From contig REEK01000119.1 of NCBI GenBank assembly GCA_007695115.1, forward strand, positions 1 to 62,290: a DNA stretch of 62,290 bases. The letters run 5' to 3'. Position numbers and translations under genes: made by a program. The DNA comes from Sphaerobacteraceae bacterium. Lineage in GTDB: Bacteria; Chloroflexota; Chloroflexia; Thermomicrobiales; Thermomicrobiaceae. Below, one piece after another: positions 135-47,571 of this stretch (within the stretch, counting starts at the first letter, position 1; every line of letters starts with the position of its first letter). The notes under the pieces were generated by a model. It had not been told where the DNA came from. It searched no databases and saw only the letters and a program-made list of their open reading frames with translations.

Positions 135-1352
135 CTATTCGTCGGTCAGCAGTGAGACAGCGGCGAGGGCATAGGCTTTGGTTGCATCGACAACCTCATC
201 GACGCCAACCCACTCGTCTGGCTGGTGGGCCAGTGCCGGGTCGCCCGGTCCGTAGACGATGGCCGGGTAGCCATTCGCAACGAAATGGCGACCGTCGGTG
301 CCCATACTGAAACCGGTCGGCTCGGCGTTGAAGCCGAGGAACTCGTTGGCTTCCAGCATCGCTTTTGGCAGTGGATCACCCGGCTCGCAGTGATGCGCCT
401 CGCGGCCACCCATCGGTCCGAGTTCGACTTCCACGCGCATGCCTTCGATTCCGGCGATCGCCCGAATGGCAACGTCTTCGATCTCTTTGCGCACTGCCTC
501 CGGCGTCTCGCCCGGGACAATGCGACGATCGACATAAATCGAACACTGGTCGGGAACAACGTTGGCTTTTACGCCGCCGCTGATCATCGAGACGGTCATC
601 GACGACGGTTTGAAGAGCGGGTGGGTTCGTTCGGCAAGAATCGGCTGTAGTTCATTCTGCAGCGCCACGATTACCTTGCCCATGCCGTCGATTGCGTTGA
701 CGCCTTCCCATGGAAGGGCCCCGTGTGCCGCACGTCCGTAAACCGTGACGTTGCAGCCGGCGCCACCCTTTTCACCCAGGCAGACCCGGTTGAGCGTTTG
801 TTCGCCAACGATCACGAAATCAGGCTGGACGTTCGGATCATTGGCACAGAGCTGAGCGCCGAGCACGCCACCGACCTCTTCATCGGCCACCTCGTTGACG
901 ATCAGTTTGCCTTTGATCGGCACACCGGAACGAGCCAGCGCGACGGCTGCCATGACCTGCGCGGTCACGCTGGCCTTGTCGTCGCCAGCGCCACGGCCAT
1001 AGACTCGTCCGTTTACCAGCTCTGCGCCGAATGGCGGGTGAGACCAGTTGCTTTCGTCACCTGTGGGAACGACGTCGATGTGTGCGTTGAACAGGAGCGT
1101 TGGCCCGTCGCCGTCTGATTTCGACGCCAGCAGATTCGGCTTCTCTTCTTCTTCGGTGATGTAGTCGATCGTGAAGCCTTCGGCTGCCAGCTTGTCAGCA
1201 CAGTACTTCATCCCGGCGCGAACGTCGCCGGGCGGGTTGACGCTGGGAATTCGCACCAGCCCTTGGAGGAACTCGGTTATTTCCTGCTCATCGACGTGTG
1301 CGAGGACCTTTTTGGCTGTCTCCTGATTGATCTCGCGGGTACCATCCCCCAC
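135..1352 (-). CDS. M20 family metallopeptidase (ArgE/DapE/CPG2 type)
   Basis: A 405-residue zinc-dependent amidohydrolase/peptidase of the ArgE/DapE/carboxypeptidase G2 superfamily, which removes N-acyl groups or C-terminal residues from small substrates. The metal and catalytic motifs are visible: AHIDVVP (His91, Asp93), GRGAGDDK (bridging Asp124) and DEEVGG (general-base and metal Glu158/159). A dimerisation insert follows. The start is a GTG preceded by AAGGAG with a 6-base gap. The gene stands alone: it converges on the truncated first gene and is divergent from the HAD gene. There is no signal peptide, so it should be cytoplasmic. The substrate cannot be told from sequence. It is one of three M20 proteins in this window, and they are not close copies of each other. 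Confidence 0.88.
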   Translation of the reverse strand: MGDGTREINQETAKKVLAHVDEQEITEFLQGLVRIPSVNPPGDVRAGMKYCADKLAAEGFTIDYITEEEEKPNLLASKSDGDGPTLLFNAHIDVVPTGDESNWSHPPFGAELVNGRVYGRGAGDDKASVTAQVMAAVALARSGVPIKGKLIVNEVADEEVGGVLGAQLCANDPNVQPDFVIVGEQTLNRVCLGEKGGAGCNVTVYGRAAHGALPWEGVNAIDGMGKVIVALQNELQPILAERTHPLFKPSSMTVSMISGGVKANVVPDQCSIYVDRRIVPGETPEAVRKEIEDVAIRAIAGIEGMRVEVELGPMGGREAHHCEPGDPLPKAMLEANEFLGFNAEPTGFSMGTDGRHFVANGYPAIVYGPGDPALAHQPDEWVGVDEVVDATKAYALAAVSLLTDE

Positions 1353-1403
1353 CGGTGACTCCTTCCACGCATGTTAAAATATCGTTCCGGTCGTGACGGG
1401 CGC

Positions 1404-1412
1404 AGTATAGCA
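1404..1412 (-). promoter_or_regulatory. Possible extended -10 promoter for the M20 gene
   Basis: Read leftward, TGC-TATACT gives a TGn extended -10 element about 50 bases upstream of the GTG start. No good -35 is visible. The same TGC-TATACT string occurs before the tRNA-Val gene. Confidence 0.4.
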
Positions 1413-1519
1413 TGAGTCATCCCGGTTTCTGACTGTGCTAACCTTCTCCGGGACAGTCCCCGGGAGTGCCGAATCTGTTCACGTGACGTCAATTTAATTG
1501 CAGGACACGGAGTAGCGCA

Positions 1520-2350
1520 GTGACCGCGACAACAGAAACCGAGCTCAACAATCTGCTCGAACGGGCAGAGTCGTACGTGATCGATATGGATGGGGTGATC
1601 TATCGTGGTGATCTCTGTCTGCCGTATGTTCCGGAGTTCCTGCAGGCACTTGAAGCGCGCGGTATTCCGTACCTGATGGCGACGAACAATTCGACGAAGT
1701 CGCCGCAGGAGTTTGCTGACAAGCTCCAGAAGATGGGGATCGACCTCGGCGCAGACCGGATTCTGACATCCAGTGTAGCCACCAGGGGCATGGTCGAAGA
1801 GCGTTACCCGAAGGGAACCGGCGTATGTGTCGTTGGGATGGCAGCGCTGCACGCGGCGATGTTTGACGATGGCTACTTCGTTCCGGCGGGCAAGGATGCC
1901 CAGGTTGTCGTCTCTGGCGGTCACTTCGGGCTAACCTACGATGACCTGCGCAAGGCCTGTCTGGCAATTCGTGCCGGAGCCGACTGGTTTGCCACGAATG
2001 GCGACACGACGTTCCCGACCGAAGAGGGCATTATCCCCGGTTCGGGTGCAATCATCGCCGCTTTGCACGCTGCGACAGACAAATCTCCAGTCGTGGTCGG
2101 CAAGCCATCTACCGGCATGATCGAAGAAGCGATGCAGAGTCTCGGGACGTCCGCTCCAACAACGATCATGCTCGGCGATCGACTGGACACCGATATCCTT
2201 GCCGGGGAGCGTGCCGGTTTGCCGACGATGCTGGTGATGACCGGCGTTACTGATCCCGCGGAGCTGGAGTCGTCGGACATCACCCCGGACGTGATCATCG
2301 ATGACCTGGCGCCACTGGTTGCCTTCTATACCGGGCAAGTTACCGGCTGA
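1520..2350 (+). CDS. HAD-superfamily phosphatase, NagD/4-nitrophenylphosphatase-like
   Basis: A 276-residue HAD hydrolase of subclass IIA (NagD, AraL, p-nitrophenylphosphatase group). Motif I is VIDMDGVIYRG (nucleophile Asp22, acid/base Asp24), motif II lies in MATNNSTKSP, and the C-terminal GDRLDTDILAGERAGL is motif III/IV, which holds Mg2+. The cap type fits dephosphorylation of small phosphorylated metabolites; the physiological substrate is unknown. The GTG start has CGGAG 7-8 bases upstream. Its TGA overlaps the ATG of the following methyltransferase (TGATG), so the two are probably translated together. The 5' intergenic region carries overlapping palindromes (1450-1500). Confidence 0.9.
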   Translation: MTATTETELNNLLERAESYVIDMDGVIYRGDLCLPYVPEFLQALEARGIPYLMATNNSTKSPQEFADKLQKMGIDLGADRILTSSVATRGMVEERYPKGTGVCVVGMAALHAAMFDDGYFVPAGKDAQVVVSGGHFGLTYDDLRKACLAIRAGADWFATNGDTTFPTEEGIIPGSGAIIAALHAATDKSPVVVGKPSTGMIEEAMQSLGTSAPTTIMLGDRLDTDILAGERAGLPTMLVMTGVTDPAELESSDITPDVIIDDLAPLVAFYTGQVTG

Positions 2351-3159
2351 TGCGGCAAGTTGGACGCTACGATATCGATGATCCGGGCAAGATCCAGGGG
2401 CGTGATGAGGTCAATCCATCAGACCGCAGCGTGGCAGCGATACGACTCAATCACTGTCTCGATGCTCTGAGCGATACCTCGGGCACCGTACTCATCCTGG
2501 GATGTGGCGCCGGTCGTTACGTTCGGGCGATGAAACGGGTACGGCCTGATCTCCGGGTGATTGGCTGTGATCTCAGCGTTTCTGCGCTTCATGAGGCCGT
2601 TGCTGCCGACCGGGATGGTGAATACATCGCCCTGGATGCCAGCGTTCTTCCATTTGCCGATGATTCGATTCAGGCGGTCGTGTTCTTCGACCTGATCGAG
2701 CATGTTCCCGCTTACGAAGAGATGTTGGCGGATATCGGCAGGGTGCTGGTCTACGACGGGGTGTTTCACTTCTACACACCGCTGGAAGATCAACCCCGCA
2801 GCATCTATCACCTGCTGAAGAACTCCAGTCGGCTTCCACTGAGAACCTGGAAACAGGACCATGTCGGGCATATCAACTTCTTCCGGGCACAGGATGTCTT
2901 TCGAGATATCTGGCACGCCGGATTCAGGGTCGAAGATGCCCGGTACGGGTTTCATCCGTTCGGGCAGGTTCATGATCTGGTGGACTACTGGCAGCGGGAA
3001 CGAGTTGGGGGAGCCTCCGGCGTACTACCGATCTCAGCGGTGAGGATGGTCGCGAGAGTGACGTTTCTGTTTACCTGGCGATTGTCGTACTTCGAAGATC
3101 GCCTCTACGAGGGGCCAACGCTAGCCTCCGGCCTTCACCTGACGGCGAGAATGCGGTAG
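2350..3159 (+). CDS. Class I SAM-dependent methyltransferase
   Basis: 269 residues with a Rossmann-type methyltransferase core: motif I is VLILGCGAGRYVRAMKR (about residues 46-63), an acidic residue ends strand beta-2 (VIGCDLS), and motif IV is AVVFFDLIEHVPAYEEML, of the UbiE/Methyltransf_11 style. The C-terminal part holds several aromatic and basic residues and may contact the acceptor. The acceptor (small molecule, lipid or sugar) cannot be inferred. The ATG overlaps the HAD stop by one base, so the two are co-translated. Confidence 0.85.
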   Translation: MRQVGRYDIDDPGKIQGRDEVNPSDRSVAAIRLNHCLDALSDTSGTVLILGCGAGRYVRAMKRVRPDLRVIGCDLSVSALHEAVAADRDGEYIALDASVLPFADDSIQAVVFFDLIEHVPAYEEMLADIGRVLVYDGVFHFYTPLEDQPRSIYHLLKNSSRLPLRTWKQDHVGHINFFRAQDVFRDIWHAGFRVEDARYGFHPFGQVHDLVDYWQRERVGGASGVLPISAVRMVARVTFLFTWRLSYFEDRLYEGPTLASGLHLTARMR

Positions 3160-3184
3160 CGATTCCGATCATTACATCTGATTT

Positions 3185-3204
3185 CAATCCCGGCGCCGGG
3201 ATTG
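3185..3204. other. 20-bp perfect palindrome upstream of the UbiB-type kinase gene
   Basis: CAATCCCGGCGCCGGGATTG reads the same on both strands with no spacer. It lies in the 97-base gap before the kinase gene, 53 bases ahead of its ATG. No T-run follows, so it is not a typical intrinsic terminator. It could be an operator for a dimeric regulator or a cruciform. Confidence 0.5.
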
Positions 3205-3256
3205 CGAGTGTCTCTGTCGGTACGATTGCATTGATCAGCGACTGACGAGGGATTGC

Positions 3257-4918
3257 ATGCTCTTCCCCAGGAGAACCAGACGGATCCGGCGCTATCGGGA
3301 AATTGCCCGTGTGCTGGCTGGTCATGGGATGGGGTTTCTGGTCGGCATCATTGGTCTGGAGCGGTTTGCTCCGTTCCGCCGGGGTATGACGGCCGGTGGA
3401 GGCTGGCCGTCCCAACCAGAGCGTCTCCGGCAAGCCCTCGAAGAGCTGGGACCGACCTTCGTCAAGCTGGGACAGATCCTTTCGACCCGCGCCGACCTGC
3501 TTCCTCCCGAGTTTCAGCACGAGTTGTCACTACTCCAGGATTCAGCGGCTCCAGTCCCATTTCCCCTGATCGATTCTGTGCTCGAAGAGCAGCTCGGGAT
3601 GCCGATCAACCAGGCGTTCGCTCAGTTCGATCATGAGCCGCTGGCAAGTGCATCGATTGGTCAGGCACACGCTGCCAAACTCCATGATGGCACCGATGTG
3701 GTGGTGAAGATTCTTCGGCCCGGGGTGCAGTCACAGATCGAAGAGGATCTGAACATCCTCTATAACCTTGCACAGACGGCGAGCCGACGCTGGGAAGTCG
3801 CCAATCACTATGATGTCGTCGGCCTGGTCCAGGAGTTCTCCGACACGCTCCGGGGCGAACTGGACTACCTGCGAGAGGCCCGGAATGCGGAGCGGTTCGC
3901 TGAGGGGTTTGCCGATGATCCCGTCGTCCGGGTCCCGGCGGTATTCCGGGAAACCACGACCGCGCAGATCATCACCCTCGAGCGGCTTCGGGGCACAAAG
4001 GTCAGTGATGACGAGGGACTGGAGACGAACCAGATCGACACCCCTGATCTGGCCGACCGCATCTTCCAGATGTACCTGAAGATGATCTTCTCTCATGGAT
4101 TCTTTCACGCTGACCCCCACGCCGGGAACTTTTTCATCGATACCCAGGGGCGAATCGGGCTGATCGATTTCGGGATGGTTGGCTATGTCGATCAGCGGAT
4201 GCAGGACGATCTCGTACGGCTTGTCCTCGCAATCGTGATGGAAGATGCTGACCGGATGGTCGATGTGATTCTCGATCTCGGAGTGGCCCGGAGCCGGGTT
4301 GATCGGGCAATTCTCCGACAGGATCTTCAGCGTCTGTTGAACAAGTACACGGATCGATCGCTCGGGGAGATCGCCCTGGGCACCGCGATCGAAGATGGAT
4401 TGATGATTATTCGTCGACATAATCTGCAGTTGCCGTCGAACATGGCGCTGCTTCTCAAGACGGGAGTCATGGCGGAAGGCCTGGCGGCCAGAGTCAGCCC
4501 GGATTTCGAGCCCATCAGTGCGCTGCGGCCATACACCGAGCAGATCCTGATGAATCAGCTTCACCCGCATGCGATGGCAAAGCGGGTGGGAACCGCCAGC
4601 TTCGAGGCGATCCATCTCGGCATGGAATTGCCTCACATGGTTCGACGGATTCTGAGCGCGGTCGACCGGGGGCAACTCGAAGTTGGGGTGCGGCCAGAGC
4701 GGTTCGAATCCCTGATGTTCCGTGCAGAGCGCATGGTCAACCGGGTGGTGCTCGGGATTCTGACTGCATCGTTCATCATCGGGCTGGCGATCCTGATGGC
4801 GGTATACAGCCCGCCACTCTGGGATCAGTGGGCCGGGGCATTCTTCGGGCTTGGGTTCATCATCGCCGGCGGCCTTGGTCTGTATCTGGCCTGGACGATT
4901 CTCCGCTCATCCCGCTAA
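3257..4918 (+). CDS. ABC1/UbiB (AarF) family atypical kinase, membrane-anchored
   Basis: A 553-residue protein of the UbiB/ADCK family of atypical protein-kinase-like ATPases. Members support isoprenoid-quinone synthesis or lipid homeostasis at the membrane. Visible motifs are the family-specific KxGQ helix (FVKLGQILSTRADLLP, about residue 70), the alanine-rich loop ASIGQAHAA, the ATP-lysine strand VVVKILRP, the catalytic HADPHAGN (about residue 284) and the metal-binding LIDFGMVG. Two hydrophobic helices near the C-terminus (about 495-550) anchor it. The ATG follows GAGGGA. Which quinone or lipid it serves cannot be said; no quinone-biosynthesis gene is nearby. Confidence 0.92.
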   Translation: MLFPRRTRRIRRYREIARVLAGHGMGFLVGIIGLERFAPFRRGMTAGGGWPSQPERLRQALEELGPTFVKLGQILSTRADLLPPEFQHELSLLQDSAAPVPFPLIDSVLEEQLGMPINQAFAQFDHEPLASASIGQAHAAKLHDGTDVVVKILRPGVQSQIEEDLNILYNLAQTASRRWEVANHYDVVGLVQEFSDTLRGELDYLREARNAERFAEGFADDPVVRVPAVFRETTTAQIITLERLRGTKVSDDEGLETNQIDTPDLADRIFQMYLKMIFSHGFFHADPHAGNFFIDTQGRIGLIDFGMVGYVDQRMQDDLVRLVLAIVMEDADRMVDVILDLGVARSRVDRAILRQDLQRLLNKYTDRSLGEIALGTAIEDGLMIIRRHNLQLPSNMALLLKTGVMAEGLAARVSPDFEPISALRPYTEQILMNQLHPHAMAKRVGTASFEAIHLGMELPHMVRRILSAVDRGQLEVGVRPERFESLMFRAERMVNRVVLGILTASFIIGLAILMAVYSPPLWDQWAGAFFGLGFIIAGGLGLYLAWTILRSSR

Positions 4919-4942
4919 CGGTACGTATCTGGGGGCCTGGAG

Positions 4943-5077
4943 CTAGTCACTGGGCTTGTCAGACTCGTCCTGAACCTCAACCGGCGCGATGCGGTCCCGC
5001 AGGAAGTAGTATCCCGCCACGAACACGATCAGCATCCCAGCGACACCAGCCAGCGTTCCAATCATTAGCACGTCCAT
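4943..5077 (-). CDS. Small single-pass membrane protein, 44 residues
   Basis: A short reading frame begins at an ATG preceded by GGGAG 8 bases upstream and ends in TAG. It starts MDVLMIGTLAGVAGMLIVFV, one hydrophobic helix of about 20 residues, then AGYYFLRDRIAP and an acidic hydrophilic tail (VEVQDESDKPSD). The residue pattern is that of a real small membrane protein rather than a chance frame. It lies between the convergent UbiB-type gene and, further right, the LppM-like lipoprotein gene on the same strand. It could be a read-through partner of that lipoprotein. No family is recognised. Confidence 0.6.
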   Translation of the reverse strand: MDVLMIGTLAGVAGMLIVFVAGYYFLRDRIAPVEVQDESDKPSD

Positions 5078-5212
5078 GCGTCAGCTCCCGTTCTGGGTTG
5101 ATCACAGCGTATTCGACCATGGTAGATCAAGCTACCCTGGTCCATTCTGCGTCCCCCGGGGAGGTCAGCGTTGTGAGTAAAGTCACACCTTGAACATATC
5201 GTTGCGGAATTG

Positions 5213-6100
5213 TTACGTCTTGCTCTGGTTTGACCTGGGTGGCTCAGACGACAGGTCTGGCGCCTTCTGCCCGCGCATCAGAACGAATCCACCAGTGATC
5301 AGCAGGGCAAGTGCCGCGAGGCCGAGAATGATCCCGACGATGACCCAGACCGACATTCCGGATCCTTCTTCGGATTCAGCGAAGAACGTTTCCGACCCCG
5401 AGAGGGGGATCTCGAACTGTACTCGCTCTGGCCCGGCAGATGATCCGTTATGCTCGGTAATCTCGCCGGGCATCGAGACGGTATAGGTCATATTCACGAA
5501 CTGCCCGAACATGTCGAGGCCAGGCTCGACATCGAAGTCGAATTGATCGCCAAATTCGTCGCTGAACTCATCTGCGAGTTCGTCTTCGACGTCAGGTCCC
5601 AGTTCATCCTCTGGATCACCGTTGAACAGCTCTTGCTGGTTCTCGAACAGGGCGTCGCCATCCGCGGTGAGCTCGAACCGGTAGGTGGTGGAACCGAGAG
5701 AGCTGGACTCGGTGAACGATCCCTGGAATCCGCCTTCGGGTGGACTGTCGCTTCCCGCAACGGCGAACAGCTCGCTGAGGACATCGCTAAGATCCGAATT
5801 GTCTTCGACGTCCGTCGAGAGGCGGACCCCGACTCGAGATGCGGTGTCGATCACCTCGACATCGAAACCGGCTTCCTCGCCCTGCCGCTCGGCTTCACTG
5901 AAATCAAGCGGGCCACCAATTTCGTCGGAAATCGCGGGATCATCGAGAAACGTGCGGTCGATTGTGGTCTCGATCGAGTGGCGGGCGCTGCCGTCTGCCT
6001 GGAAATCGCTCTCGACTTCGATCTGCATGCAGGCACCGAGAATCAGCGCGAAGGTCAGGGTGGCCAGTATGGCGATTATGGGACGACGGGGTGGGTTCAT
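5213..6100 (-). CDS. LppM-like lipoprotein with C-terminal transmembrane helix
   Basis: 295 residues. The N-terminus is a lipoprotein signal (MNPPRRPIIAILATLTFALI then LGAC; the lipidated Cys is about residue 24). The mature part begins MQIEVESDFQADGSARHSIE, a beta-rich pattern like LppM/DUF3153 domains of actinobacterial and chloroflexal lipoproteins. An acidic stretch (DELADEFSDEFGDQFDFD) follows, then a strong helix (VWVIVGIILGLAALALLITG, about 255-276) and a short basic tail. It is therefore probably held by both a lipid and a helix. The ATG follows GGAG with a 6-base gap. The function is unknown; the LppM link is from remembered patterns and is tentative. Confidence 0.7.
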   Translation of the reverse strand: MNPPRRPIIAILATLTFALILGACMQIEVESDFQADGSARHSIETTIDRTFLDDPAISDEIGGPLDFSEAERQGEEAGFDVEVIDTASRVGVRLSTDVEDNSDLSDVLSELFAVAGSDSPPEGGFQGSFTESSSLGSTTYRFELTADGDALFENQQELFNGDPEDELGPDVEDELADEFSDEFGDQFDFDVEPGLDMFGQFVNMTYTVSMPGEITEHNGSSAGPERVQFEIPLSGSETFFAESEEGSGMSVWVIVGIILGLAALALLITGGFVLMRGQKAPDLSSEPPRSNQSKT

Positions 6101-40057: not shown

Positions 40058-40099
40058 GAGAATGAACTCGGGAGGGCATCTCGCCCTCCCGCGATTCTC
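40058..40099. terminator. Bidirectional terminator between moaA and the DinB-like gene
   Basis: CGGGAGGGC (40069-40077) pairs with GCCCTCCCG (40083-40091), and an outer GAGAAT (40058-40063) pairs with ATTCTC (40094-40099). The palindrome is long, with no clear T-run, and ends at the stop codon of the leftward gene. Confidence 0.65.
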
Positions 40100-40584
40100 T
40101 ATTCGTCAGGGTCGATACCCAGCGCCTCTTCGACCTCGCTGGCGTGCTGGATCGAGTGCATTCCGCCGCTGCCCAGCAGTACGTTCCCAAGATTCGTTTC
40201 CCGGTTTGGCAGGATCACGGGAAAACTCAACTGATCGTCTCGAAGCTTCCGTGCGCGCTCGATCAAGTGATCGTGCACCTGCTGGAACTCCTCCAACAGT
40301 TCTTCTCGGGTGCGCCCCGCGCGTTCTTCGACCAGTTTCTGGTTCCAGTCGTCAATCGAGAACCCGCCCGGCGGCGTACCGTTTCCGTCCACCGCGATCG
40401 ATACCAGCATGTCGTAGGTCGGTTGCCGGTTTGCCAGATGCGCGAGAATCTGCCGTGCGTTCCAGCCGTCCGAACCTTCATGAATCTTCGACTGGAGCTG
40501 ATCCTCTGACAGCTTCGAGAACGTTGCTGTTACCCGGTTTCTGCCCGCCTGAATCGCATCGATGATCTCAGCGCGTGTTGCCAC
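40099..40584 (-). CDS. DinB superfamily protein
   Basis: A 161-residue four-helix-bundle protein of the DinB/YfiT kind. Metal-ligand histidines are visible in ARQILAHLANR and MHSIQHASEVEEAL. Many members are thiol-dependent metalloenzymes (mycothiol or bacillithiol transferases, maleylpyruvate isomerase), while others are uncharacterised. The start is GTG at 40584, with GGAAGG 4 bases before. It is followed on the left by a convergent moaA, and the serpin gene lies upstream on the same strand. A 7-bp inverted repeat TGTCCGT/ACGGACA (40600-40629) lies between it and that gene. Confidence 0.82.
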   Translation of the reverse strand: MATRAEIIDAIQAGRNRVTATFSKLSEDQLQSKIHEGSDGWNARQILAHLANRQPTYDMLVSIAVDGNGTPPGGFSIDDWNQKLVEERAGRTREELLEEFQQVHDHLIERARKLRDDQLSFPVILPNRETNLGNVLLGSGGMHSIQHASEVEEALGIDPDE

Positions 40585-40653: not shown

Positions 40654-41985
40654 CTACTCGGACGGATCGGTCACCTGTCCCAGAAACAGAATTGTGTCAG
40701 TCTCCGTGTCGCTGATCACGGTCACGAATGAGCGGTCAAGGCTAAAGGACGGTGGCTCTGATACCGGCATGTCGCCGGCGGTCACCGCAGCGGCCTCGGT
40801 TCCTTCCTCGTCAACTCGCAGGTAGGTCTTCTGGATCACGTCTCCCATCCAGGTTGCGTCCTGCGACATGCGAGTGAAGTCGGCACTCTCATCGAATGCG
40901 ACGCCCATCCCGAGTTCACTTAACAGCTCGGGGAGTTGTTGTCCGGTATCGTATTCTAGTTCGAACGTCGGAATCGATACCTCAACCGGGCGTTCCTGAA
41001 GATTCTGGGCGGCTTCCTGCCAGTCATCCCGCTCGAGCGACTGGCTGAACCCGGCGATGTCCCCGGCGCTGCCGGGAAGGATGAAATCCATCGCGAATCG
41101 TTCCGATTCGCCATATGGCAATCTCAGCATCGTGAAGTCGTCATGATCAGCAAAGCTGAAGTTTGCGAAGTCTTTCATCTTCGGGACAGTGACAGACTCC
41201 CCATCCTCCCGGTGGAAGGCTCCGTCTACAGTGTCATCCGGATCGAAGGGGTCGGTCCAGTTGCCGAGGAAGTACGTGGCGTTGGCGACGACCATCAGCG
41301 TCATTGGGTTGGGGAGCTCCAGATCGTCAGCAACTCCATCGATGCGTTCCTGCGTCTGCTCGGAAACCCACCGGTCGATTTCATCTGCCGTCTCCTGAGA
41401 TCCAAGGTCCCGGGTTTCGATCGCTGCGCGGAAGCGCTCGACCATCGCGTCACGATACTCGTTCTCGAACTGCATCTGTTCATTCGCCCAGAGCGCGTTG
41501 GCGATCGAGAGCTCGACGTCGGGATCGGCATCGATCATGTGGGCCGCGAGTGCCTGAAACGACGCTATCAGGTGGTCATCGTAGGGATCCTCGAGGTGGA
41601 GAACATCAGCGATTGCCTCGCGGGTTTCGCCATCCGCGCCTTCGAGAAACATCATCAGGAACATCGCGGCGCTGAATGGACTGGAAATGACGTTCCCGGA
41701 GGGTTCGTTCGCGACGAGGCCGTGGAAGAAGTCGATGCCGAAGTCTGACACGGAATTTGCCGCGACGCCGGGATCAACATCTTCCCCGGGAGCCTGTATT
41801 TCCGTGCCATCCTGATCGTCGACTCGTGGTTCCTGAGCGTCATCTTCCGGAGCTGGGGTGGAGTCGTCAGTCTGTTCGGTGCCAGCATCGTCGGGTCCGT
41901 CGTCCCTGGCCTGATCATCATGCTCCGACTGCAGGCATCCGGCCAGGAGAAGCAACCCGGCAGCGAGTATTAGCGCTTTCCTCAT
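40654..41985 (-). CDS. Lipoprotein serpin (copy 1)
   Basis: A 443-residue serine-protease inhibitor with a lipoprotein signal (MRKALILAAGLLLLAGC), then an Asp/Glu/Pro-rich spacer (about 20-70) and a full serpin domain (NVISSPFSAAMFLMMFLEGA, NALWANEQMQFENEY, ANATYFLGNWTDPFD, VSIPTFELEYDTGQQ, LDRSFVTVISDT). The reactive-loop hinge is EEGTEAAAVT, followed by AGDMPVSEPPSF. By alignment to the S-x-PP of alpha-1-antitrypsin, the scissile bond would be near Val-Ser. The intact Ala-rich hinge predicts a true inhibitor. The ATG at 41985 follows GAGGG. It lies 30 bases after copy 2 on the same strand. Confidence 0.93.
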   Translation of the reverse strand: MRKALILAAGLLLLAGCLQSEHDDQARDDGPDDAGTEQTDDSTPAPEDDAQEPRVDDQDGTEIQAPGEDVDPGVAANSVSDFGIDFFHGLVANEPSGNVISSPFSAAMFLMMFLEGADGETREAIADVLHLEDPYDDHLIASFQALAAHMIDADPDVELSIANALWANEQMQFENEYRDAMVERFRAAIETRDLGSQETADEIDRWVSEQTQERIDGVADDLELPNPMTLMVVANATYFLGNWTDPFDPDDTVDGAFHREDGESVTVPKMKDFANFSFADHDDFTMLRLPYGESERFAMDFILPGSAGDIAGFSQSLERDDWQEAAQNLQERPVEVSIPTFELEYDTGQQLPELLSELGMGVAFDESADFTRMSQDATWMGDVIQKTYLRVDEEGTEAAAVTAGDMPVSEPPSFSLDRSFVTVISDTETDTILFLGQVTDPSE

Positions 41986-42015
41986 GGTTTCCCTCGATTC
42001 AGATGCACGCGGCAA

Positions 42016-43380
42016 CTACTCGGACGGATCGGTTACCTGACCCAGAAACAGCACCGTGCCGGATTCGGTGTCAGTGATCATGATCATGAATGGCCGATCG
42101 GCGCGGAACTGTGGCGGGGCCGATTCAACCATCGCGCCACCGGTGACTGCGGCTGCCTCGGTGCCTTCCTCGTCGACACGAATGTAGGTCTTCTGCACCA
42201 CGGTGCTGAGGAACGGCGCCAATTCCGAAATCGGGGTGAAGTCGGCTTCGCCGGTGTAGGCGATACCCATGCCCAGATCCTCGAGTACTTCGTTGAGGGC
42301 TCCCCCGGTGTCGTACTCCAGCTCGAACGACGGCATCGCCACGTTGACGCGGTCTTCGTTCAGATCCGCCTCAGCCTGCTGCCACTCCTCCAGATCGAAC
42401 CCCTCACGGAGCTGATGAATGTCGCTCTCCTCATCAGGCAGAATGACGTCCATTGCGAAACGTTCGTCATCTCCATACGGCAGTCTGACCATCTGATAGC
42501 CATCCATCTGGGCGTGCAGGTGAGTGTCGTCCTTCGTCATCATCGAAACGGTCACCTCATCACCTGACACGGTGGTGAAGATAGCTTCCTCGTCGGTCAT
42601 ATCCGGATCGAACGGTTCGGTCCAGTCAGCCAGGAAGTAGACGGCGTTGAGCAGGATCAGCACCATGTTGGGATCCGGTACCCCGAGTGCTTCGGCCATC
42701 TCCTCGATGCGATCGTTGGTGTTGTCGGCCACCCACTCATCGATCTGGTCGACCGCATCTTCGCTACCGAGGTCGATCTCTTCAACCAAGGCGCCCAGGT
42801 AGTCCTCCATCTCCGAGAGATATTCCGGCTCGAGAGGCGTGCCCTGATTGGCCCATAGCGAGTTAGCGATCGCCAGTTCGACATCTTCATCTGCTTCAGT
42901 CAATTCAGTGATCAGCGCCTGATGCTGTCTCAGAATCTCCGGATCGTCAGGATCTTCAATGTGGAGCACCTCACCGATCGCGTCGCGGGTGTCTCCGTCG
43001 GCGCCAGCCAGGAGCATCGTCAACAAGATGGCAGCACTGTACGGGCTGGTGATGACGTTCTCGTCCGGATCAGCATCTGCGAGGCCGGTGAACATGTCGA
43101 AGCCGAACATCGAAGTCGAACTCACTGCCTGACTGTAGTCGACATCTTCGACCGGCTCCGGCTGATCGTCCGTTGCATCGTCATCTGTCGCCTCATCGTC
43201 TGGGGCTGGTGTCGGATCAACGGCCGGCTCATCATCATCAGCCGCAGCGTCGTAATCGACCTGTTCCTGATCGTCGGTTGCTGGTTCTGCGGTTGGCTGG
43301 GCGTCGTCGGCCTCGCGATCGACACATCCAGCGACTGCGAGCATGATCGCCAGCGTCAGCAGCATGAGAACACGTTTCAT
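42016..43380 (-). CDS. Lipoprotein serpin (copy 2)
   Basis: A 454-residue paralogue of the downstream serpin, with its own lipoprotein signal (MKRVLMLLTLAIMLAVAGC) and an acidic/Pro spacer, then the serpin fold (NVITSPYSAAILLTMLLAGA, NSLWANQGTPLEPEY, LNAVYFLADWTEPFD, VAMPSFELEYDTGGA). The hinge is EEGTEAAAVT, but the bait is GGAMVESAPPQF, with Glu-Ser at the position where copy 1 has Val-Ser, so it should trap different proteases. The ATG at 43380 follows GGAG. It is the first gene of the pair and is divergent from the M24 peptidase gene. Confidence 0.93.
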   Translation of the reverse strand: MKRVLMLLTLAIMLAVAGCVDREADDAQPTAEPATDDQEQVDYDAAADDDEPAVDPTPAPDDEATDDDATDDQPEPVEDVDYSQAVSSTSMFGFDMFTGLADADPDENVITSPYSAAILLTMLLAGADGDTRDAIGEVLHIEDPDDPEILRQHQALITELTEADEDVELAIANSLWANQGTPLEPEYLSEMEDYLGALVEEIDLGSEDAVDQIDEWVADNTNDRIEEMAEALGVPDPNMVLILLNAVYFLADWTEPFDPDMTDEEAIFTTVSGDEVTVSMMTKDDTHLHAQMDGYQMVRLPYGDDERFAMDVILPDEESDIHQLREGFDLEEWQQAEADLNEDRVNVAMPSFELEYDTGGALNEVLEDLGMGIAYTGEADFTPISELAPFLSTVVQKTYIRVDEEGTEAAAVTGGAMVESAPPQFRADRPFMIMITDTESGTVLFLGQVTDPSE

Positions 43381-43434
43381 TTGACTCCTCGATTCCTTCC
43401 GATAGGTCGCGTCGGTCCTGTACACTCGACGACA

Positions 43435-43448
43435 TTCATATCCATGAA
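43435..43448. promoter_or_regulatory. Inverted repeat in the serpin/peptidase divergent promoter region
   Basis: TTCAT-ATCC-ATGAA sits near the middle of the 118-base gap between the divergent serpin and M24 genes. It could be an operator shared by both directions. No strong -35/-10 pair was found in the gap. Confidence 0.35.
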
Positions 43449-43498
43449 GTTCCCGCACTGTATCAGCCGATCAGTCAACAGACATGAGGAGACATACC

Positions 43499-44692
43499 GT
43501 GACAGAGAATTCGATCGTCAATCAGAAGCTGAAGCAGGCCTCGGAGATCCTCGATGAAGTTGGCATCGATCTCTGGTTGATCGTGGCTCGTGAAAGCGAC
43601 ACGCTGGGCGACCCAAGCATGCCGCTGGTGGTCGGAACCAGTGTGACCTGGGAGTCGGCATTTCTGATCTCGCGAGATGGGGATCACAAAGCGATCGTGG
43701 GCACTGGCGATGTCGATAACGTGCTGCAAACCGGCGCCTGGACCGATGTCGAGGGCTATGTCGAGAGTCTGGGCCCGGCTTTACAGGCGGCGATCGAGCA
43801 GCGAAAGCCGCGCAGTATCGGACTGAGCTATTCCACCGACAACTCGATGGCTGACGGTTTGACCTATGGCATGTATCTCGAATTGGAACGGTTTCTGGGC
43901 AAGACTCCGTATTGGGATTGCGTGACTTCTGCCGAGCCAGTGGCGTCCCGGCTCCGGGCGCGGAAGTCAGCCGAGGAGATCCAGCGGATTCGCGAAGCGA
44001 TTGCCACCACCGAGACGATATGGGCGGAGACCGCCGAGTGGCTGCGACCGGGTCTCTCCGAGCAGCAGATCTCGGACTTCATGCACAGCCGACTCGACCA
44101 CTATTCAGTGGATTCATCGTGGGACTGGAAATACTGCCCGACGGTGATGGCAGGACCGAACTCGCCCGAGGGACATGTCGGGCCGTCTGACATCGTCACC
44201 GAGGCGGGTCATCTGCTGGCGATCGACTTCGGGGTGAAACAGAATGAATACACCTCAGACATGCAGCGGACGTTCTATTTTCTTCAGGATGGAGAGACCG
44301 AGGCGCCGGCCGAGCTCGTCGAAGCGTTCGGTGTGGTCGATGCCGCGATCCAGGCCGGTGCAAACGCGCTCAAACCAGGAGTGACTGGCTGGGAAGTCGA
44401 TCTGGCCGCGCGACAGGTTCTCGAGGAATATGGTGCTGCCGAGTGGAAGTTCGCCTTCGGGCATCAGATGGGACGAGCCTGCCATGATGGTGGAACTGTC
44501 CTTGGGCCGCGCTGGGATCGCTACGGGCAACGTCCATATGATCTGATCGAGGAATCGCAGATCTATACGCTTGAGATCGGGTTCCCGGTGGCTGGTCGGG
44601 GACGGGTCCAACTCGAGGAGGATGTAGTGGTCACTGCCAACGGTTGCGAGTTTCTTTCTGATCCGCAGCGGTCGTTGATACTCATCGGGTAG
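43499..44692 (+). CDS. M24 family metallopeptidase (Xaa-Pro peptidase-like)
   Basis: A 397-residue pita-bread-fold enzyme. The N-terminal creatinase-like domain (about 1-160) is followed by the catalytic domain with metal ligands in LLAIDFGVKQNEYTSDMQRT (two Asp), GHQMGRACHDGG (His), YTLEIGFPV (Glu) and LEEDVVVTANG (Glu). It may cleave Xaa-Pro peptides or act on a related substrate. The GTG at 43499 has AGGAG 7 bases upstream; the ATG at 43484 lacks a ribosome site. It leads a rightward run of peptidase and hydrolase genes. Confidence 0.88.
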   Translation: MTENSIVNQKLKQASEILDEVGIDLWLIVARESDTLGDPSMPLVVGTSVTWESAFLISRDGDHKAIVGTGDVDNVLQTGAWTDVEGYVESLGPALQAAIEQRKPRSIGLSYSTDNSMADGLTYGMYLELERFLGKTPYWDCVTSAEPVASRLRARKSAEEIQRIREAIATTETIWAETAEWLRPGLSEQQISDFMHSRLDHYSVDSSWDWKYCPTVMAGPNSPEGHVGPSDIVTEAGHLLAIDFGVKQNEYTSDMQRTFYFLQDGETEAPAELVEAFGVVDAAIQAGANALKPGVTGWEVDLAARQVLEEYGAAEWKFAFGHQMGRACHDGGTVLGPRWDRYGQRPYDLIEESQIYTLEIGFPVAGRGRVQLEEDVVVTANGCEFLSDPQRSLILIG

Positions 44693-44734
44693 GATATCTT
44701 CGAAGTAGAGAAGCGTAATCCGGGAGGAGTCAGG

Positions 44735-45895
44735 GTGACGGACATCAAGGACATTCAGCAGCGAGCAGCCGGTTACTACGATGCGTACCTGGCCGATCTG
44801 GAGCGGATCGTCAATATCGACAGCGGGACGTTCGATCGCGACGGCGTCAACGAGGCAGGACAGTTTCTGCAGGACATCCTGACTGATCTCGGCTTCGAGA
44901 TCACCCTGCATCCCAATACAGAACTGGGCGATAATTTCGTTGCCACGCTCAAGGGCAATGGCACCCGCAAGCTGATGTTGCTCGGTCATTTCGATACCGT
45001 CTACCCGGCAGGAACGACCACCGAGCGCCCGTTCACGATTCGCGATGGCAAGGCATATGGACCGGCCTCGATGGACATGAAGGGTGGGATGGTCCTGGCC
45101 TGCTATGCCCTGAAGATCCTGCGAGATCTCGGCTTCGAGGATTTCGCCGAGATTACCTTTGTCGCAAACGCAGACGAGGAGATCGGATCGCCATCGTCTC
45201 GCAAATTGATCGAATCCGAGGCGTCCCGGATGGATGCCGTGTTCGTCTTCGAGCCGGGACGTGCCGCAGGTGGGGTGCTGGCAACCCGTAAGGGTGTCGG
45301 TATGTTCGAGTTGGCCGTCCACGGTGTAGCGGCTCACGCAGGCGCATCCCCGCAGGATGGCCGGAGCGCAAACCTGGAGATGGCCCACAAGATTATCAAG
45401 CTGCACGACCTGAATGACTTCGAGATCGGGACAACTGTCTCCGCCAACCAGATGCACGGTGGAGAGCGCCGGAATGTCATCGCGGACTATGCGCACTGCG
45501 GGGTCGATGTCCGCGTGGTCACCGGTGATGAAGGTGATCGAGTTACCCAGGCGATCAATGAGATCGCCGAGGGACAGGTAGTCCCTGATACCCGGACCGT
45601 ACTGACCGGCGGGATCAACCGTCCGCCGATGGAGAAGGTCCCCGGAACCGAGGCGCTGCTGGGACTCTCGAAAACAATCGTGGATGGTCTCGGGCGGGAG
45701 TATGTCGAACTGAATAGCGGCGGAGGGAGCGACGGTAACTTCACCGCAGCTGTTGGAACGCCGACGCTCGACGGCCTGGGGCCGGAAGGCCAGAACGCGC
45801 ACAACGCCGAGACCGAATATGTGGTGCTCGATTCGATCACTGATCGGATTGCGCTCACGACAGCACTGTTGATCGATTGCCCCGCCAAGCCGTAG
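44735..45895 (+). CDS. M20 family peptidase (carboxypeptidase G2-like)
   Basis: A 386-residue zinc hydrolase. The motifs are LLGHFDTVYPAGTTTERPF (His, Asp), YGPASMDMKGGMVLA (bridging Asp), NADEEIGS (Glu pair), EPGRAAGG, a dimerisation domain with GVAAHAGASPQDG, and a C-terminal His in AHNAETEYV. The HFDTVYP form is typical of glutamate carboxypeptidase/CPG2-like members. The GTG start has GGAGGAG upstream. It lies 42 bases after the M24 gene. Confidence 0.9.
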   Translation: MTDIKDIQQRAAGYYDAYLADLERIVNIDSGTFDRDGVNEAGQFLQDILTDLGFEITLHPNTELGDNFVATLKGNGTRKLMLLGHFDTVYPAGTTTERPFTIRDGKAYGPASMDMKGGMVLACYALKILRDLGFEDFAEITFVANADEEIGSPSSRKLIESEASRMDAVFVFEPGRAAGGVLATRKGVGMFELAVHGVAAHAGASPQDGRSANLEMAHKIIKLHDLNDFEIGTTVSANQMHGGERRNVIADYAHCGVDVRVVTGDEGDRVTQAINEIAEGQVVPDTRTVLTGGINRPPMEKVPGTEALLGLSKTIVDGLGREYVELNSGGGSDGNFTAAVGTPTLDGLGPEGQNAHNAETEYVVLDSITDRIALTTALLIDCPAKP

Positions 45896-45913
45896 TCTAC
45901 GTCTGGAGAACCC

Positions 45914-46750
45914 GTGGCACAGCAGCCTGATTTCGACTGGTTCGAGGTGCGATCATTCGCACATGACATCTATGGGATCGGCGAACCCGGTCACTTCGAG
46001 GACGTGAAATCGTTCCTTGTGGTCGGTGATGAACTCGCCATGCTAGTTGATACCGGTATGGGGATCGCCGACATCCGTGCGGTGGCGGAGAGCCTTACCG
46101 ACCGACCGATTCTGGTGGTCAATTCGCACGGTCATCTCGATCACATCGGCGACAACTGGCGCTTCGATCGAATCTGGGCTCATCCTCTCGAAGTCGAGGC
46201 GATAAGCACCGGAGTGGGCAACGAACGAATGCGGCGGTTTCTGACCAGCGAAGCGTTCAATCGGACGCCGCCGGCTAATCTCGACCCAGAGTCGTTTCAT
46301 ATTCCAGGCACCACGGTCGAGCAAACCATCGACCAGGGTGACGAAGTTGATCTCGGTGGCCGGCGATTCCGCGTCATTCATACCCCGGGGCATACATCCG
46401 GGGGCATCAGTCTGTTCGAATCGGAGACGGGAATCCTCATCGCAGGTGATGCCATCTACGAGGGCCCGCTCTTCGCCCATCATCCGGGCGGAAGTGTCTC
46501 GGACTATCAACTGGCGCTGCAGCGACTTGCGGCGCTGGTACCTGATCTGAGTGTGGTCTACCCGTCTCACAATCGATACCCACTTGAACCTGCGTTCATC
46601 CTGGCGGTGCAGGAAGCGCTGGAACGCATCGTGGCGGGGATGTCGCCCGATGAATCCGAGAACGGCCTGCATCGGTTCAACTTCGATCGCTTTTCATTCA
46701 CTGTCCGATCGACCTGGCGCAGCGAAGAGGAACGGAGCGAAACATCGTGA
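45914..46750 (+). CDS. Metallo-beta-lactamase-fold hydrolase (copy 1)
   Basis: 278 residues with the MBL metal motif NSHGHLDHIG (HxHxDH), a later His in FRVIHTPGHTSGGISL, Asp in LIAGDAIYEG and His in VYPSHNRYP. The GTG start has GGAG 5 bases upstream. The end overlaps copy 2 by four bases (GTGA). The pair shares a layout and about half of its residues by eye, so it came from a local duplication. The substrate is unknown; the context suggests amides, esters or peptide-derived compounds. Confidence 0.88.
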   Translation: MAQQPDFDWFEVRSFAHDIYGIGEPGHFEDVKSFLVVGDELAMLVDTGMGIADIRAVAESLTDRPILVVNSHGHLDHIGDNWRFDRIWAHPLEVEAISTGVGNERMRRFLTSEAFNRTPPANLDPESFHIPGTTVEQTIDQGDEVDLGGRRFRVIHTPGHTSGGISLFESETGILIAGDAIYEGPLFAHHPGGSVSDYQLALQRLAALVPDLSVVYPSHNRYPLEPAFILAVQEALERIVAGMSPDESENGLHRFNFDRFSFTVRSTWRSEEERSETS

Positions 46751-47571
46751 GCGGTTCACCCAACGTCTCGTGGTACGACGTCACCCACTACAGTGATGAT
46801 GTCGTTGCGATCGCCGAACCCGGACACATTGAAGATGTGAAAGCTTATCTGGTACTCGGTTCCGATCGCTCAGTGCTGATTGATAGCTGTGTCGGATTCG
46901 AGGACATCAGGGCAGTTGTGGAAAGCCATACAACCGGCCCGGTTACCCTGGTGAATACCCACGGGCACCTCGATCACATCGGGAACAACTGGCGCTTCGA
47001 GGAACGCCTGGTACACGAGGCTGATGCAGACCGCGTTCGTGCCGGACTGACCAATGCGCAGCTGGGGCGGTTTCTGAAACCGGAAGCGTTCTCCCGTGAG
47101 CCTCCGCCTGGTTTCGACCCGGAGACGCATCACACGCCCGGTACTGAACCGACCGGATTCGTCAACGACGGCGACGTGATCGATCTCGGTAACCGGCAGT
47201 TGCGGGTCATGTATACACCGGGACATACACCTGGGTGCATCAGCCTTGTCGACGATGCCAATGGCCTGCTATTTCCGGGCGATATGGTCCATACCGGTGC
47301 GATGTTTGCGCATTACGAGGGTGGCTCAGCGCACGAGTACCGGGATTCAGTGAAGCGACTGGCCGAGCTAGTGCCAGCCCTTACCTCGGTCTATCCCGGA
47401 CACAGCCACTACCCGATCTCGCCCGGGGTGGTGAGTGATGTCGACATTGCGTTCGACGAGATCTGGGCTGGACGAGAGCCGGACGTTCGTGAAAACGGCG
47501 TGCTGAAGTTCCAGTTCGATCCGTTCACGCTGACGTTGCGCGAGTCGTGGCGCGACGAGATCCCCGGTTAG
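46747..47571 (+). CDS. Metallo-beta-lactamase-fold hydrolase (copy 2)
   Basis: 274 residues, tandem paralogue of copy 1. The motifs are NTHGHLDHIGNNWRFEE, LRVMYTPGHTPGCISL, LLFPGDMVHTG and VYPGHSHYP. It keeps the full dinuclear metal set. The GTG start is embedded in the copy 1 stop (GTGA). Both copies share the opening pattern WYDV/WFEV, then GEPGH/AEPGHIEDVK, that faces the active site. Confidence 0.88.
   Translation: MSGSPNVSWYDVTHYSDDVVAIAEPGHIEDVKAYLVLGSDRSVLIDSCVGFEDIRAVVESHTTGPVTLVNTHGHLDHIGNNWRFEERLVHEADADRVRAGLTNAQLGRFLKPEAFSREPPPGFDPETHHTPGTEPTGFVNDGDVIDLGNRQLRVMYTPGHTPGCISLVDDANGLLFPGDMVHTGAMFAHYEGGSAHEYRDSVKRLAELVPALTSVYPGHSHYPISPGVVSDVDIAFDEIWAGREPDVRENGVLKFQFDPFTLTLRESWRDEIPG

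Follow-up and report, generated by a model that had tools for sequence, protein, structure and literature searches.

The hinge ExGTEAAAA marks competent inhibitors among serpins, and export signals are carried by most prokaryotic members of the family (PMC8233489). Miropin of Tannerella forsythia (PDB 5ncs) is reported as a pathogen's serpin that acts on proteases of the host (PMC8233489), and chloropin is described as carrying a signal for secretion, with Arg-Ser at P1-P1' (PMC10090351). Conserpin (PDB 5cdx) is a synthetic consensus serpin. To our knowledge, little has been established about what bacterial serpins do in organisms that live free of a host. The window analysed here, a stretch of 62,290 nucleotides from a Sphaerobacteraceae bacterium of the phylum Chloroflexota, contains two adjacent serpin genes, S1 and S2. 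Judged from their sequences, they add two members to the family of inhibitory bacterial serpins, duplicated and diverged in their loops; the family itself is ordinary and common in the phylum. Like miropin, S1 and S2 are bacterial serpins with an inhibitory hinge, and at 28-31% identity miropin is among their best sequence and fold matches. However, miropin has another loop and is a pathogen's serpin, whereas S1 and S2 are two very acidic paralogues in a free-living haloalkaliphile. With chloropin and with the serpins of other Chloroflexota, many of which have a lipobox, they share the predicted character of exported inhibitory bacterial serpins, but their identity to the Chloroflexota serpins outside the genus is 30-36%, their loop is shorter by 2-7 residues, in most cases by 4, and their likely P1 is Glu/Asp or Val. 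Conserpin is the best PDB sequence match (E 1e-52) and has a loop of equal length; it differs in being a designed protein and in carrying its Arg-Ser one position later in the loop.

The assembly of the window's genome (G000) has 3.68 Mb and is 98.5% complete, and the genus is represented by G000, G002, G003, G004 and G005. The first-pass annotation had described two tandem serpins at 40654-43380, separated by a divergent gap of 118 bases from a rightward M24-M20-MBL-MBL hydrolase run with duplicated MBL genes. This layout is borne out (table 1). Both serpins match the PF00079 profile at full length, from position 2/3 to 370 of 370, with S2 30 bp downstream of S1; the hydrolases are supported by Pfam matches, and MBL1 and MBL2 are 46% identical across 271 aa. 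The length of the gap is correct when M24 is taken to start at GTG 43499: AGGAG stands 7 nt before this codon, which lines up with the ATG in the sister species G005. The M24 metal ligands D, D, H, E and E are present, the motifs being read by eye in the translation. The M20 protein, whose nearest solved relative is carboxypeptidase G2, has catalytic (PF01546, 99 bits) and dimerisation (PF07687) domains, both above cut-off, and reaches 346 bits against the glutamate carboxypeptidase subfamily (NCBIfam PRK06133), just below the cut-off of 349. The extent first given to the locus leaves out the DinB gene, which by synteny directly follows the serpins in 5/5 genus members, and, necessarily, an operon that is present in relatives only.

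Table 1. Features of the serpin locus in window coordinates; a slash marks the likely scissile bond.
Feature	Position	Strand	Evidence or remark
DinB-superfamily protein	40099..40584	-	Pfam DinB_2 55 bits
Serpin S2, lipoprotein	40654..41985	-	Pfam Serpin (PF00079) 311 bits, cut-off 27; ATG 41985
S2 likely scissile bond Val408-Ser409	40759..40764	-	loop MPV/SEPP
S2 hinge EEGTEAAAV	40783..40809	-	sequence
Serpin S1, lipoprotein	42016..43380	-	Pfam Serpin (PF00079) 323 bits, cut-off 27; ATG 43380
S1 likely scissile bond Glu419-Ser420	42121..42126	-	loop MVE/SAPP
S1 hinge EEGTEAAAV, start of reactive loop	42145..42171	-	invariant in genus members with that part
Divergent gap, 118 bp	43381..43498	.	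between S1 start and M24 start
M24 metallopeptidase, Xaa-Pro dipeptidase/aminopeptidase P-like	43499..44692	+	Pfam 129 bits; best PDB 2zsg, 5cdl
M20 metallopeptidase, carboxypeptidase G2-like (glutamate carboxypeptidase subfamily)	44735..45895	+	PDB 1cg2, E 4e-56
MBL-fold hydrolase 1	45914..46750	+	Pfam Lactamase_B 94 bits
MBL-fold hydrolase 2, tandem paralogue	46747..47571	+	Pfam Lactamase_B 73 bits

S1 and S2 are 49% identical across 427 aa. The N-terminus of S1 consists of a signal peptide ending in AVAGC and an acidic disordered linker of ~60 aa, with the serpin domain starting at about residue 83, and that of S2 of the lipobox LLAGC followed by an acidic linker. In both, the lipobox Cys was recognised by inspection after a hydrophobic stretch, in agreement with their earlier description as lipoproteins; the combination of lipobox and acidic linker occurs across the genus and likewise in many Chloroflexota serpins. 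S1 has 113 Asp+Glu against 15 Lys+Arg, an acidity that would fit exposure to brine. Its predicted structure is a serpin fold, with antithrombin, conserpin and miropin as the best matches in the PDB (E 2e-32). The linker has pLDDT values below 50, as do most of the loop residues 413-424, which is expected for an exposed loop. The hinges (P17-P9), previously noted as intact, are indeed so in both proteins and fit the consensus except at P9, which is Val here and Ala in the consensus. Hinge and predicted fold, together with the purifying selection described below, favour the proposal that the serpins are inhibitory, and the prediction of S1 and S2 as inhibitory, surface-anchored serpins is well supported by sequence and structural model.

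The loops had been read as diverged at the cleavage site, with Glu-Ser in S1 and Val-Ser in S2. The divergence is evident across the genus, where S1-type loops are MVES-APP, MLES-MPP and MVDS-LPP, and S2-type loops are MPVS-EPP. Ser is invariant, whereas the residue preceding it is Val in S2 and acidic in S1 (Glu or Asp in 4/4 S1-type loops: VE-S, LE-S, VD-S), and three species have the same S2 loop up to and including the scissile bond (EEGTEAAAVTAGDMPVSEPP). At the matching place, many Chloroflexota serpins have T-S-[A/M]-P, the usual loop in the phylum, and matching x-S-[A/M/L]-P to this motif puts the Ser of S1 and S2 at P1'. Counted from the hinge, there are 16 residues to Glu or Val, or 17 to Ser. 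Because the loop is overall one residue shorter than that of antitrypsin, a strict 17-residue count places P1 on Ser and the P1 assignment is uncertain; inhibitory serpins with 16-residue spacing exist, namely C1 inhibitor and alpha2-antiplasmin. Given the invariant Ser, the acidic residue or Val before it and the match to the Chloroflexota motif, Glu-Ser and Val-Ser are likely, and are the best-supported cleavage sites, with alternatives possible.

Within the family, serpins are found in 5/5 genomes of the window's genus and in 0/16 genomes of five other genera. They are sporadic in the order (10/61) and common in the phylum (91/400), where lipobox-like signals are frequent among them, so that lipoprotein serpins as such are ordinary here. 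A contig scan with S1 recovered a single relative, L010 of G004. One serpin was seen in G003, and the loci of G002 and G005 are split over contigs; the N-terminal fragment of G005 enters the analysis through tblastn only. A tree of the serpin genes supports the S2 clade (99/93) but groups G003 with S1 only weakly (80/36), and the duplication can be dated no more closely than to some time before G000/G004 and G002/G005 separated. A recent horizontal gain of the serpins was considered from composition, but GC (~0.59) and GC3 (~0.70) match the neighbours and nothing stands out.

The neighbourhood was compared with that in relatives. The order MoaA-M24-M20-Wzy ligase is kept in five serpin-free genomes (G006, G008, G009, G011 and G012; 53-80% identity), and in G020 M24 stands alone between MoaA and Wzy; the M24-M20 pair is thus old and does not depend on serpins. 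In the genus, the MBL genes lie between M20 and Wzy, and none was seen at this place (45914-47571 in the window) in genera g3, g4 and g6. In G001, which belongs to genus g2 and has no serpins, one MBL adjoins Wzy (L097 3-731). In G002, G003 and G005, the operon DAO-SBP_bac_5-OppB-OppC separates M24 from the serpin. It points away from M24, in the direction of the serpin and DinB, and its DAO gene encodes an FAD oxidase of the DAO family. M24 through the operon to the serpin is on one contig in G002 (L100; operon 846-5875); in G003 the locus is divided between a contig with M24-DAO and a second one with OppC-serpin-DinB-MoaA, and the G005 locus extends over three contigs, with operon parts at L105 4651-6344 and L107 481-4149. 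The operon is without ATPase genes. Since orthologues of its SBP lie elsewhere in other genera (54-57% identity), the operon probably moved to this locus in the genus ancestor.

DAO, SBP_bac_5, OppB and OppC are absent from the locus in G000 and G004, and no orthologue of the SBP or DAO gene was found elsewhere in G000 (best match 36% for SBP and 36% for DAO). The M24+M20 tree is (G003,((G000,G004),(G002,G005))), with full support for G000+G004, and parsimony favours a single loss of the operon on the G000/G004 branch. Insertion in G002, G003 and G005 was examined in place of loss and set aside, as with G003 basal repeated gain is less simple. Between G000 and G004, that is after the operon loss, dN/dS is 0.10 for S1 and 0.22 for S2; the Wzy pair, being out of frame, is excluded from this comparison. 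Because purifying selection persists after the loss, the value of the serpins to the cell is independent of the transporter.

We consider it probable that S1 and S2 are suicide-inhibitor lipoprotein serpins, duplicated and specialised at P1, that protect surface proteins at a locus shaped by transporter loss. Both would be secreted and tethered by the flexible acidic linker to the outward side of the membrane in a haloalkaliphilic Thermomicrobiaceae-type bacterium, whose source habitat we infer to be soda-lake sediment. A foreign serine (or cysteine) protease would cut the exposed loop, after which the hinge would enter sheet A and the protease would be caught as a covalent complex. The pair arose by tandem duplication, probably earlier than the genus radiation, and would have specialised toward an acidic P1 (Glu/Asp) in S1 and an aliphatic P1 (Val) in S2. 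Protection from outside proteases is the most likely role, and the proteins protected in a protease-rich sediment may notably be the many solute-binding proteins. The position of the serpins next to peptidases would reflect an ancestral attachment to the end of a peptide-type ABC operon set beside the older M24-M20 locus; in the G000/G004 lineage the transporter was, by parsimony, deleted and the serpins retained.

Alternatively, the serpins, M24, M20 and the MBL pair could form a functional module, co-regulated from one divergent promoter region, in which the surface is shielded while peptides are taken up and cut. The genes are adjacent, the gap is compact, and the neighbourhood is common to 5/5 genus members, three of which have the peptide-type ABC operon between serpin and M24. 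However, the head-to-head adjacency exists only in G000 and G004, and since it is a product of the operon loss, the 118-bp gap is a secondary junction rather than a promoter unit under conservation; where one genome has two gene sets in tight divergent order, their junction can stem from a deletion. The MBL genes have a separate origin, with at least one copy present also in the serpin-free g2. At 25 other Chloroflexota serpin loci, SBP5, OppB, OppC, M24 and MBL do not recur, and the neighbourhoods gave one M20-like match (L171, at the window edge) and one DAO-like match (L128), both at 25% identity. The promoter scan, which covered the sigma-70 type only, and the terminator scan gave nothing above chance. 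We therefore regard this organisation as unlikely. The divergent region that the first-pass annotation describes as shared by serpins and hydrolases is the outcome of a gene loss in one lineage: since the rest of the family has the hydrolases but no serpins, and the operon loss is lineage-specific, one region serving one programme is unsupported as an ancestral design. The co-occurrence in relatives that it had proposed to look for is found within one genus (5/5 with serpins, the junction lying on a single contig in only some of them) and not in the rest of the family.

A serpin stands at the end of a peptide-type ABC operon in the gene order of the genus, which makes a link between the serpins and peptide uptake suggestive within one genus, though unproven. 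The serpins might first have been the last genes of this uptake operon, shielding its binding protein with paired acidic and aliphatic loops, and have been retained after the transporter was lost, but we consider this origin improbable. If true, a protease inhibitor would have been an integral part of a locus for nutrient uptake and would have outlasted the transporter. Among open-licence papers, none was found that links a serpin to a peptide-transporter operon. G000 has 53 SBP_bac_5 matches, so a single one near a serpin is unsurprising by itself. The earlier idea of a surface shield beside peptide uptake thus gains some support from the lost operon and is still conjecture. SBP_bac_5 matches number 37-56 per genome across the genus against 17-30 in g2, g3, g4 and g6, which suggests an enlarged set of solute-uptake systems in the window's genus.

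The targets of S1 and S2 might also be the cell's own exported proteases, of HtrA/Trypsin_2-like or subtilase type, the serpins then serving the housekeeping of extracytoplasmic proteolysis. Such roles have been hypothesised for hub-like prokaryotic serpins (PMC8233489), and G000 has five Trypsin_2 (HtrA-type) matches and one subtilase (S8) match. However, counts of HtrA-like proteases and subtilases are no higher in the window's genus than in the serpin-free genera, which carry at least as many; thus no co-gain of the serpins with own proteases is seen and no genus-specific self target is evident, and control of own proteases seems quite unlikely. That S1 and S2 are non-inhibitory, with the fold alone kept for binding or another role, would accord with their strong acidity, their long branch from the other Chloroflexota serpins and their short loop, but is highly improbable in view of the invariant hinge, the loops conserved between species and the purifying selection.

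The genus is a small natural experiment, in which paired serpins were gained at a peptidase locus, at first behind a peptide-type transporter operon, and remained under selection once that operon had gone. The two well-defined loops, of predicted acidic and aliphatic specificity, are available for testing. In G002, two serpin fragments (L100 6012-6827 and L101 3-887) overlap with 94% identity across 133 aa; they could stem from a further duplication of very recent date or else from variation between strains within the MAG.
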